In this document: positions 2,157 to 61,886 of the stretch, piece after piece | Position numbering within the stretch: the first letter of the stretch is position 1 | Layout of the letters: the number at the start of each line of letters is the position of its first letter | Source: Psychromonas algarum | GTDB taxonomy: Bacteria; Pseudomonadota; Gammaproteobacteria; Enterobacterales; Psychromonadaceae | NCBI RefSeq assembly: GCF_004376845.1 | Contig: NZ_SNUW01000011.1 | Span: forward strand, 1-64,000 | Reading direction: 5' to 3' | Length of the DNA: 64,000 nucleotides | Position numbers and translations under genes: made by a program | Notes under the pieces: generated by a model | Databases searched by the model: none | What the model was told of the DNA's origin: nothing | What the model saw: the letters and a program-made list of their open reading frames with translations, nothing else

Positions 2157-4571
2157 TTAAAATAAAGACATTTGATCTGATGTTATAAGGTTAAAATCTA
2201 TACCTAAAATAGGCAGAATAGCTTCTGCTATGGGTTTTAACTGCTTATCAATATATTGTTGATAATCAATTTCAGAATGGCAATATTCCTGCGGCTCAGG
2301 ACCATTCACCGTCAACAAATAACCTATTCGCCCACGTTGTTGATAACGCAAGGGTAAACCCAACTCCGCATTTTGTTGGTCAGCTAAACGTGCAGCTCTT
2401 ACTTGAGGTGGAATATTTTTAATGTAATCTGCTAATGGTCGACGTAAACGTTTGTGATACACCAATTTATCATCTAACAGGCCTTGTTTTAATTGAGCGA
2501 TTGTTTCTGTTATATATTCTTCAACGGGCATTTCTGCAAATATTTTTTGATATAGAGTTTGTTGAAAAGTTTGTGCCAGTTCAGTCCAATCGGAGCGAAC
2601 TGTTTCTAATCCTTTAAAGACTATTTTTTCACCTTCATCCGTCGCAGTTAAACCTGCATAACGCTTTTTAGATCCTGTATCTTGACCACGTAACGTTGGC
2701 ATAAAAAATTTTGAAAAAGCGGTTTCAAACTCAATTTCTAAGTAACAATCAAGATCGTATTCTTGCCGTAAAAGTTCAGCCCAATATTGATTAATATCGA
2801 GAGCAAGTTGCTGCCCAATTTGATTCGCTTGTTGTAAATTTTGACATTCTTTTAAATACACAAAAGTAGAGTCTGTATCTCCATAAATAACCTGCTGACC
2901 TTTTGCTTCAATAAAAGCAGCTGTTTGTTGCATTATTTGATGCCCACGCAGCGTAATAGAACTTGCTAAGCGAGTATCATGGAAACGGCAACCAGCGGAT
3001 CCTAAAACACCATACATGCTATTCATAATAATTTTAATCGCATGTTGAAAAGCATTATTTTTTTCTTTTTTAGCCTGCTCACGGGCATTAGTGAGTGTAT
3101 CTAGAATACCCGGAAGGTGATGTTGTTGCCGGCTAAACCTTGCCCCTCTAAAACCAGGAATAGTTTCTCTTTTAGTCTCTAATAGACCTTCTATCATTCC
3201 CATAGGATCAATTTTAAAAGTTCGAATAATATTGGGATATAATGATTTGAAATCGAGTACTAACACCCATTCGTATAACCCTGGCTTTGAGTCCATGACA
3301 AAGCCACCAGGAGAATGCTGGGCTTGAATATCACCTAAATTTGGGGCGATGTAACCACTACGATGTAATAAGGGTAAATATAAATTAGTGAAAGCGGCAA
3401 CAGAAGCTCCACGGCGATCAAGTGCCAGCCCAGTTAATCGAGCTCGTTGAATGGTATATTCCGCTAATTGCTTCGCAGCAAAAATACGTTCAACCAATAA
3501 ACAATCCTGTAAATTGTAACGTGCGAGGGTTACGGGTTCTTGTTCAAATTGTCGCTTTATCTCCAAACCTTTATCATAATTATTAGCAATCAACTTGCCT
3601 TCTGAAAACAAACTTTGACTAACAAATTCCAAACTATAACTTTCAAAATGTAAACTAGCATTTCTTAATGCATCGATACCATCTAAAACAACGCGGCCAT
3701 TTAAAATAACTGAGCCGGCATTAGCATCATCTCTGTGTGCTAACCATTTTAAGGCACTACCATCACGCCCAATAGTTAAAGGAACATTTAAAATATGAGC
3801 GCGTTTTGCTAATAAACGCATATCAAAGTTAGCAACGGCCCATCCGATAATCGCATCGGGATCATGAATTTCAAACCAACGGGTTAACTGTATTAATAAC
3901 TCCCGTTCATCTTTAACCCAAACAATATTAATATTTTCTGCAGCTTGAGTTTGTCCAATCATCAACACAGTATGGTGTGCTTGTTTTGACTGTTCAGTAT
4001 TATTCATACTTAACGCGATACTATACAACTCGCTTTGAGGACTGCATTCAACATCTAATGACACCATGTTTAAACAACTATTACGTTTAATCACCCCCTC
4101 ATCGCTTTCAGCAGAAAGTGTTGCGTGCTGACAAGACCAGTAACTTCCAAGCCAATCAATTTGACCGGACACTCTCACTAACCCGTAAATAAATCGCTCC
4201 ATTAAATAACGATCACTTAACTTAATATCGCCTTCATAAGTTGCAATATTTTGTTTCATTAAAGCCAGTTGACACCATTTATGATGTTGTTGTTTGAAGG
4301 TGTAAATCGCGCAGACTTTTTTACCATTGAAGGTTTTTATATCAATTGAACGAATATAATCAGGTTGGCAGTTTTCTTGTTTCCAAATATCTTTTGCTTG
4401 TTCAACTTGTTCCTGTTCAATTAAAAAAACATAGCGTTGTTGAGGCACTACAACTCGACAGGGACCGCGGTCGGTACTTAACCAAAAAATAAGATCAACA
4501 CCATTCACGTTCTCAACTTGCTGACGCGATAATATTAAACCAGAGATAAAGGTAAGAGATCTTTCTTTCAT
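2157..4571 (-). CDS. polB: DNA polymerase II (family B, proofreading)
   Basis: An 804-residue family B DNA polymerase (E. coli PolB is 783). The 3'-5' exonuclease motifs are intact: DVECS (about 172), GWAVANFDMRLL, and YNLQDC. The polymerase motifs follow: A, LDFKSLYPNIIR (about 440); B, KIIMNSMYG (about 517); and C, YGDTDS with the two metal-binding Asp (about 563). In enterobacteria this enzyme belongs to the SOS response and performs translesion synthesis and restart. I searched the region before the start for a CTGT-N8-ACAG LexA box and did not see one, so SOS control is unproven here. The gene is monocistronic. A copy of the dispersed intergenic repeat sits directly upstream (4582-4746), within the expected promoter region. 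Confidence 0.97.
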   Translation of the reverse strand: MKERSLTFISGLILSRQQVENVNGVDLIFWLSTDRGPCRVVVPQQRYVFLIEQEQVEQAKDIWKQENCQPDYIRSIDIKTFNGKKVCAIYTFKQQHHKWCQLALMKQNIATYEGDIKLSDRYLMERFIYGLVRVSGQIDWLGSYWSCQHATLSAESDEGVIKRNSCLNMVSLDVECSPQSELYSIALSMNNTEQSKQAHHTVLMIGQTQAAENINIVWVKDERELLIQLTRWFEIHDPDAIIGWAVANFDMRLLAKRAHILNVPLTIGRDGSALKWLAHRDDANAGSVILNGRVVLDGIDALRNASLHFESYSLEFVSQSLFSEGKLIANNYDKGLEIKRQFEQEPVTLARYNLQDCLLVERIFAAKQLAEYTIQRARLTGLALDRRGASVAAFTNLYLPLLHRSGYIAPNLGDIQAQHSPGGFVMDSKPGLYEWVLVLDFKSLYPNIIRTFKIDPMGMIEGLLETKRETIPGFRGARFSRQQHHLPGILDTLTNAREQAKKEKNNAFQHAIKIIMNSMYGVLGSAGCRFHDTRLASSITLRGHQIMQQTAAFIEAKGQQVIYGDTDSTFVYLKECQNLQQANQIGQQLALDINQYWAELLRQEYDLDCYLEIEFETAFSKFFMPTLRGQDTGSKKRYAGLTATDEGEKIVFKGLETVRSDWTELAQTFQQTLYQKIFAEMPVEEYITETIAQLKQGLLDDKLVYHKRLRRPLADYIKNIPPQVRAARLADQQNAELGLPLRYQQRGRIGYLLTVNGPEPQEYCHSEIDYQQYIDKQLKPIAEAILPILGIDFNLITSDQMSLF

Positions 4572-4581
4572 AAGAATATTT

Positions 4582-4746
4582 TATACCAAGCACAATAAAT
4601 AGCTTATCTATTTTACAGGTTAAAACAGTCTACTTCCTCGTTGTAAACTTCGTAAAGAGCACAACTATTTACGTCAATTTACACCTTAAATTAAACTGCT
4701 TTTTCAACGTAAAATTTAGATAACGTATTTAATGTCATCGGTATTA
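4582..4746 (-). repeat. Dispersed intergenic repeat, copy A (full length, about 165 bp)
   Basis: Read on the minus strand, it begins AATACCGATGACATTAAATA and ends TTATTGTGCTTGGTATA. It aligns end to end with copy B at 35122-35277 and partly with copies at 21276, 24354 and 42862. The outer ends form a short inverted repeat (TAATACC.../...GGTAT). It occupies most of the gap between uraA and polB. Confidence 0.75.
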
Positions 4747-8842: not shown

Positions 8843-8918
8843 TGGCTCCTCTTGCTGGGCTTGAACCAGCGACACACGGATTAACAGTCCGTTGCTCTAC
8901 CAACTGAGCTAAAGAGGA
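8843..8918 (-). tRNA. tRNA-Asn (anticodon GTT), copy 3 of the operon
   Basis: A 76-nt tRNA with encoded CCA. The acceptor stem TCCTCTT/AAGAGGA is perfect. The D arm is AGCTCAGTTGGTAGAGC, the anticodon loop CTGTTAA gives GTT, and the T arm is CTGGTTCAAGCCCAG. It is identical in sequence to the two upstream copies and lies last before the terminator. Confidence 0.98.
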
Positions 8919-8984
8919 ATTGTTCTTTTAAGTCTTCAAATTATTAGACTCGTTATGCTTGACATCATCAAGCTTAACTAAATG

Positions 8985-9060
8985 TGGCTCCTCTTGCTGG
9001 GCTTGAACCAGCGACACACGGATTAACAGTCCGTTGCTCTACCAACTGAGCTAAAGAGGA
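8985..9060 (-). tRNA. tRNA-Asn (anticodon GTT), copy 2 of the operon
   Basis: Identical 76-nt tRNA-Asn with encoded CCA. The spacers that separate the copies (about 66 bp each) are also nearly identical (GACTCGTTATGC..GACATCATCAAGC), so the array arose by tandem duplication of a gene-plus-spacer unit. Confidence 0.98.
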
Positions 9061-9126
9061 ATTGTTATTTTAAGTCTTCAAATTATCAGACTCGTTATGC
9101 TCGACATCATCAAGCTTAACTAAATA

Positions 9127-9202
9127 TGGCTCCTCTTGCTGGGCTTGAACCAGCGACACACGGATTAACAGTCCGTTGCTCTACCAACTGAGCTAAAGAG
9201 GA
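9127..9202 (-). tRNA. tRNA-Asn (anticodon GTT), copy 1 of the operon
   Basis: Identical 76-nt tRNA-Asn with encoded CCA. It is the first intact copy behind the promoter at 9338-9366, preceded only by a degenerate tRNA-like copy at 9221-9279. Confidence 0.98.
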
Positions 9203-21275: not shown

Positions 21276-21355
21276 AGTGACACTCCCTTTACGAAATTTA
21301 CAACAAGGAAGTAGACTTTTTAACAAATAAAAGAGATAAACTATTGATTGTAATT
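21276..21355 (+). repeat. Dispersed intergenic repeat, copy D (right half)
   Basis: About 80 bp matching the second half of copies A and B: CTTTACGAAATTTACAACAA, GGAAGTAGAC and AGATAAACTATTGATTGT are readily aligned. It sits between the converging bcp and perM genes. Confidence 0.6.
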
Positions 21356-21377
21356 GCAATTTTCTTTCAAGCATCAG

Positions 21378-34869: not shown

Positions 34870-35121
34870 AAATACTCCTAATAAGAAATAATAAAACGAT
34901 GCTTTTGCAGTCTAAGCTGTGATTTAAAATAAAACGAGATAAAATTCACGTTAATTTTAGTCAATCACTCTTTTTAATATAAATAATAATTAAAAGATAA
35001 AATAAATCTTCCAATAGGATAAGACGGTAAACCTAATTTGGACAGAAAATCATTTACTTATTTGAATATAAAAGATAAAAATTACAATACATGGTATATA
35101 TCTCATTATAATGATGCTGTT

Positions 35122-35277
35122 ATATCGATGACATTAAACATTTTATCTAAATTTAGCACTGAAAAAACATTTCCATTCAAGGCGTAAATAGCTGTTCCTT
35201 TTATGTAATTTACAACGAGAAAGTGAAGCTATTTTAATAAGTAAAATAGATAAACTATTATATTGTGATTGGTATTA
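35122..35277 (+). repeat. Dispersed intergenic repeat, copy B (full length, about 156 bp)
   Basis: It begins ATATCGATGACATTAAACAT and ends TATTGTGATTGGTATT, matching the minus strand of copy A along its whole length, with central conserved words ATTTACAACGAGAAAGT and AAATAGATAAACTATT. It occupies much of the 440-bp gap between udp and the LysE gene; the rest of that gap is AT-rich with no gene seen. Confidence 0.75.
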
Positions 35278-42861: not shown

Positions 42862-42943
42862 TAATACCGATTACATTAAATATGTTATCTAAATTTTGTG
42901 CTTAAAAAATTCAATTAAAAGCGTAAATTGACGTGACGGGTAT
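42862..42943 (+). repeat. Dispersed intergenic repeat, copy C (internally shortened)
   Basis: It begins TAATACCGATTACATTAAAT, then GTTATCTAAATTTTG and GCGTAAATTGACG, matching the left half of the family. It then ends GGTAT, resembling the outer right end, so the middle appears deleted. Confidence 0.6.
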
Positions 42944-43045
42944 AAAAATTTCAAAATTTCAAATCAGCAAGTTTTTTTAATTTAAAACAATTTACATATT
43001 CAACAGATAAGTATAATCAAAAAAACTTTAATATAAGGTGAGATA

Positions 43046-61669: not shown

Positions 61670-61702
61670 CGCTTTCAACAGAACTTGTTATCATTCTCAG
61701 TT

Positions 61703-61816
61703 CTTATAGTCGGGGAGCCTAATTCAGTAATAAAGACTGAGAATATAGTGCTGAGATCGATATATCGATACCCGTTGAACCTGATACAGTTAATACTGAC
61801 GCAGGGAACTATTTAT
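61703..61816 (+). ncRNA. TPP riboswitch (THI element)
   Basis: The conserved parts of the thiamine pyrophosphate aptamer are all visible: CGGGGAGCC (61711-61719), the pyrimidine-sensor CTGAGATC (61751-61758), ACCCGTTGAACCTGATACAG (61770-61789), and TTAATACTGACGCAGGGA (61790-61807). The closing P1 helix is ATAGT/ACTAT. About 70 nt lie between it and the thiD start, with GGAG just before the ATG. I see no obvious intrinsic terminator there, so control of translation is likelier than of transcription. It should shut off thiD and the transporter genes when thiamine pyrophosphate is plentiful. Confidence 0.95.
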
Positions 61817-61886
61817 AAACCGTCCATCTGTAACTCACTTGGTTCTTTCTGGTTGATATAGTTTCGATAGCGCAGTATTCGGAGCA

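Follow-up and report, generated by a model that had tools for sequence, protein, structure and literature searches.

The window analysed here, a stretch of 64,000 nucleotides from a contig of Psychromonas algarum, contains five short repeats that lie in both orientations between genes, and it raises the question of what kind of repeat they are: a mobile element, a structured RNA or a chance likeness. A preliminary description had grouped the five as one family and had read them either as a MITE of the non-autonomous type or as a repeat acting at the level of RNA. We conclude, with a probability of roughly 0.9, that they are copies of a non-autonomous transposon of about 160 bp, moved by a transposase of a Psychromonas IS630 clade into TNA sites that become duplicated. 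The Psychromonas repeat is a mobile element (MITE), real but of a largely ordinary kind of genomic parasite; its membership in one family, its limits, the TNA duplications, the empty sites, the recent amplification and the match of its ends with IS630 elements were all computed directly.

To delimit the five copies, we ran a sequence-only model, derived from 21 copies of the MITE, over the window, and set the limits of each copy from the element ends and target duplications. The model matched all five places, confirming that they belong to a single MITE family. The strongest match (4584-4743, minus strand; 135.6 bits, E = 4.7e-41) is a full-length copy of 160 bp with TACC...GGTA termini, located in the gap between uraA and polB and flanked by a TTA target duplication (plus strand; 4581-4583 and 4744-4746). 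The second full-length copy (35123-35274, plus strand; 109 bits, E = 8.7e-33) is 152 bp long, with an internal deletion of approximately 10 bp; it is also flanked by TTA (35120-35122 and 35275-35277), and its neighbours are a gene of the nucleoside phosphorylase family and one of the lysE family. The third (24354 to approximately 24510, minus strand; 84.8 bits, E = 2.7e-25) is full-length with a decayed left end, and lies directly downstream of bepA, which encodes a peptidase of family M48. BepA as encoded in the window shares 66-73% identity with its counterparts in P. marina, P. ossibalaenae, P. hadalis, P. aquimarina, P. antarctica and others, which places the host in Psychromonas.

The two shorter copies had previously been described as half copies or internally deleted, and this description held in part. 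The copy at 42865-42942 (plus strand; 78 bp, 52.2 bits, E = 3.6e-15) still has its left arm and the GGTA at its terminus, and is flanked on both sides by TAA (42862-42864 and 42943-42945): it is therefore no half copy but an element that has lost internal sequence and kept its two termini. In contrast, the place at approximately 21281-21361 (plus strand; 41.6 bits, E = 7.2e-12), between bcp, of the AhpC/TSA family, and perM, of the AI-2E family, is indeed a right-half remnant. As originally observed, none of the window copies carries an open reading frame, here taken as one of at least 80 amino acids.

The family extends well beyond these five places. In the host genome (3.07 Mb, in a draft of 38 contigs), a BLAST query with a single copy gave at least 41 matches, and the model gave at least 136 at E ≤ 0.1, a number in which the two strands of the palindrome and split hits are each included. 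At E ≤ 1e-6, we found at least 71 distinct places in the host stretches examined, many more than the original five. Similarly, the terminal inverted repeat TACCRATYACANTAAATA occurred 154 times in the host with up to two mismatches, compared to 9 times for its reversed control. With a window of 35% G+C and copies that are AT-rich, one could ask whether the repeats are merely chance likenesses of AT-rich intergenic DNA. However, E values to 1e-41, identities of 92-99% among copies in relatives, the TNA duplications and empty sites described below, and an end pattern of the MITE in the relative G022 that yielded 59 matches versus 0 for its reversed control leave this reading with a negligible probability.

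The main class of the MITE is approximately 160 bp long with TACC...GGTA termini, and its size forms range from approximately 60 to 166 bp. Each element is an imperfect palindrome from end to end: the arms are diverged inverted copies that match each other over their full length, and the simplest explanation of this arrangement is that the element arose from two inverted ends. Internal deletions occur frequently, as would follow if nothing but the ends mattered. A minimal form of the MITE is represented by a 72-bp near-perfect palindrome (L211; G022:C1:2399099-2399172), in which two left ends stand back to back with TAA on each side.

Two lines of evidence bear directly on mobility, the first being the target duplications of young and old copies. 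The MITE has recently been amplified in the relatives G019, G022 and G008; young copies are 93-99% identical in G022 (14 copies) and 92-99% identical in G019 (6 copies). We found the same TNA triplet (TTA, TAA or TGA) on both sides of all 20 of these young copies. Among the old copies of the host, the flanking triplets were identical in 23 of 44 full-length copies, compared to a mean of 11.7 and a maximum of 21 when partners were shuffled (20,000 shuffles). These data reveal the target duplication that a MITE predicts, with triplets that are mostly TTA or TAA. The host family itself is old, with diverged copies and with target duplications and palindromes that are decaying. Together with the presence of broken transposase copies alone (see below), this divergence and decay suggest that the MITE is inactive in the host, where the family is probably a fossil that is no longer moved.

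The second line of evidence comes from empty sites, which we found in three settings. In G022, TAA stands on both sides of a MITE that is inserted in the end of another MITE remnant; removal of the insert and one TAA restores TACCAATCGGAATAAATAGCTGATCTATT, an ordinary MITE end of the right length. In the uraA-polB gap, the element is absent from eight related genomes that share this gene order: the gap reads CTTTAAAATAT in G006, and the host equivalent reads CTTTAA, the element and then TAAAATAT. Finally, the bcp-perM gap measures 32-73 bp in four named Psychromonas species, compared to 179 bp in the window. These empty sites confirm the boundaries of the MITE; by comparison, a model with a TA duplication leaves five surplus bases at them. 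We also identified, in Psychromonas hadalis (L043, 3206-3344), a MITE that sits exactly at the TAA stop codon of bepA, on a contig that stops within the element. Because this copy is opposite in orientation to the nearby host copy, it represents an independent insertion. With respect to the uraA-polB copy, its edge lies 12 bases upstream of the predicted start codon of polB (window 4571-4584). In relatives that lack the element, this position is occupied by an AT-rich, -10-like stretch, and the insertion may thus have replaced the polB promoter in its upstream part.

The palindrome could also be read at the level of RNA, as a transcribed hairpin under selection for mRNA stability, processing or the production of a small RNA. 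Young copies do fold into one long hairpin (approximately -60 kcal/mol, z approximately -9), and RNase III cuts transcripts that contain Correia elements (PMC10969869). However, the mean folding z weakens with age, at -9.4 for young copies and -3.2 for the old host copies, some of which are near 0, and the consensus fold of the old copies reaches just -4.3 kcal/mol. Covarying base pairs, which selection on a structure predicts, were nearly absent, with a double change in 2 of 19 pairs. Such loss of folding energy with age is what would be expected without selection on RNA. In addition, the copies matched no Rfam family at the gathering threshold, and they occur in both orientations and in every gene arrangement. 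We consider an RNA-level repeat very unlikely on these grounds. Of the two readings first proposed, then, the weak consensus fold and the decay of the hairpin speak against the RNA, and copy number, target duplication, empty sites and recent amplification support the MITE.

If the repeat is a MITE, its transposase must be supplied by another element. The similarity of the ends and the shared target rule indicate that the mobiliser is likely an IS630-family clade of the same genus. We identified Psychromonas elements of 1.09-1.11 kb that have TACC...GGTA ends, encode DDE_3 transposases and, in most cases, are flanked by equal TNA triplets. The transposase scored 223.6 bits against the NCBIfam model NF033545 (transpos_IS630; cut-off 100) and matched Pfam DDE_3, although its reading is split over two frames in most IS630 copies, G019 having a reading of 341 amino acids in one frame (L095); DDE_3 transposases were present in 19 of the 24 genomes searched. 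The ends of these IS630 elements agree with those of the G022-type MITE at up to 26 of 30 bases and with those of the host-type MITE at up to 23 of 30, no IS630 element with ends identical to the host type being found. As a control, 442 window sites that start with TACC gave a mean of approximately 11.5 and a maximum of 19 of 30. Both ends of the G022 MITE share the TTCCG motif with the IS630 ends. Counting against this pairing, along with the inexact match to the host-type ends, the interior of the MITE exhibited no similarity to the IS630 elements beyond approximately 30 bp.

From this anatomy, we infer that an IS630 transposase, acting in trans, would bind the paired ends of the MITE; the element would then be excised and joined to a TNA site via a three-base stagger, such that the target, mostly TTA or TAA, would end up duplicated on each side. 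In the host, we found the matching IS630 clade only as broken pieces, one a fragment of 111 residues (L079) that shares 77% identity with the protein of G019 and the other a copy with a frameshift (L189), and the remaining DDE_3 match (L071; 24% identical) belongs to a distant IS630 group. As the assembly is a draft of 38 contigs, an intact host transposase may sit in an assembly gap.

A different enzyme, for example one of the IS5/PIF-like type, could also be proposed as the mobiliser, in which case the similarity to IS630 ends would be convergent. Some IS5-group elements duplicate TNA, and IS5/PIF-like enzymes can give TNA or TWA. Furthermore, G022 contains at least 12 young copies of the MITE and yielded no match to DDE_3, indicating that its mobiliser was either lost or different; it is mainly these copies that leave room for another transposase. 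Against such an enzyme, none of 18 DDE_Tnp_1 (IS4/IS5-type) loci in four genomes had ends of this kind around the transposase, and this candidate partner was rejected; the IS630 lead was in fact an element with similar ends that neighbours one of these loci. Since elements of 1.1 kb that combine similar ends with TNA belong to IS630, we judge a non-IS630 mobiliser to be improbable. A search for the exact IS partner in G022 by end pattern gave MITE ends alone in the places that could be judged, and an odd site at 758355 in that genome proved to be a MITE with IS630-like ends.

The target rule is a further point against the assignment to an IS630 clade: the classical target duplication of IS630 is TA. 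The duplication described here is instead the three-base TNA, and the IS630 elements of Psychromonas likewise duplicate TNA. In eukaryotes, the Fot family of pogo elements, which belongs to the IS630-Tc1-mariner group, duplicates TAA instead of TA (PMC7386202). Fot elements thus share the transposase supergroup but are eukaryotic and autonomous and use TAA, whereas the Psychromonas elements use TNA (TTA, TAA, TGA, TCA). We see about an even chance that the Psychromonas IS630 clade and its MITEs, through a three-base stagger, represent a bacterial shift of the TA rule that parallels the TAA of Fot and is previously undescribed, as judged from a comparison made outside ISfinder. If the TNA duplication is confirmed, then the TA rule of the IS630/Tc1-mariner group is not fixed in bacteria.

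The preliminary description had placed all copies between genes, mostly right behind stop codons. The first part was borne out across the genome: by a simple ORF call, none of the 71 host copies lies inside an open reading frame. The second part was not: the 71 copies showed no visible preference for sites behind stop codons, and their mixed gene arrangements (48 tandem, 16 convergent, 5 divergent and 2 undetermined) led us to reject such an insertion bias. At some places (e.g., L012, L020, L153 and L156), insertion into TAAT generates a perfect extended -10 motif, TGGTATAAT, that reads outward. A perfect TGnTATAAT was present at the edges of 6 of the 71 host copies and at 7 of 40 young ends; given this rarity, outward promoters were rejected as a general feature of the MITE.

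We also assessed how widely the MITE is distributed. In a survey of 60 genomes, it was present in 22 of 24 genomes of the marine genus Psychromonas and in one other; most Psychromonas genomes hold it by the dozen. A survey of 295 genomes across the wider order, in which two candidates were scored per genome and G012 was not listed, found it in 21 Psychromonas genomes and in 5 of another genus (g2, family f2), with 5 weak matches elsewhere. The claim that the repeat is specific to this lineage is thus roughly correct for Psychromonas, but must be relaxed to admit the five genomes of the neighbouring genus and the few weak matches elsewhere. No match was found in phages, and two plasmid records contained one, from Pseudoalteromonas (80%) and Vibrio navarrensis (70%). 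Several contigs of G014 and G016 start or stop in or beside a copy of the MITE, indicating that draft assembly is limited in these species; the MITE therefore breaks draft assemblies in some Psychromonas species.

Our literature search found no description of a MITE in Psychromonas, and the searched passages of the paper on the P. ingrahamii genome contain no mention of one. The novel points are modest, namely an undescribed family and the TNA duplication in place of TA; similar arrangements are known from other bacteria. The pneumococcal RUP is an intergenic repeat of 107 bp, present in approximately 108 copies, that has ends in common with its proposed mobiliser, IS630-Spn1 (PMC2229807). This is the same arrangement as that of the Psychromonas MITE and IS630, with a short intergenic element and IS630-like ends; the comparison is one of described features, and RUP sites contain TA whereas the Psychromonas duplication is TNA. 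The Correia elements (NEMIS) of Neisseria are MITEs of approximately 105-155 bp; they too have inverted ends and fall into size classes, and both filled and empty sites are known for them (PMC2229807). They differ in having TA at their ends, rather than TNA, and 24-bp inverted ends, and promoters and an IHF site are present in some of them. Enterobacteriaceae and Vibrionaceae carry ERIC, an intergenic repeat with inverted ends, in tens to hundreds of copies (PMC10969869). ERIC resembles the Psychromonas MITE in its intergenic location, inverted ends and many copies, but the latter has a proposed mobilising IS. To our knowledge, no mobilising IS has been established for ERIC, and we recognise no sequence in common between it and the Psychromonas MITE.

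With these limits in place, a dispersed repeat of nearly all examined Psychromonas genomes, one that could be mistaken for a regulatory RNA, is now named and bounded. The young copies of G019 and G022 provide a natural set for probing which end sequences the transposase accepts, and the fossil copies of one species and the recent copies of others together form an age series along which the history of a bacterial MITE can be followed. Elsewhere in the window, we observed three tandem tRNA genes with equal scores and a period of 142 bases (8846-9202, minus strand), and a TPP riboswitch (61701-61824, plus strand).
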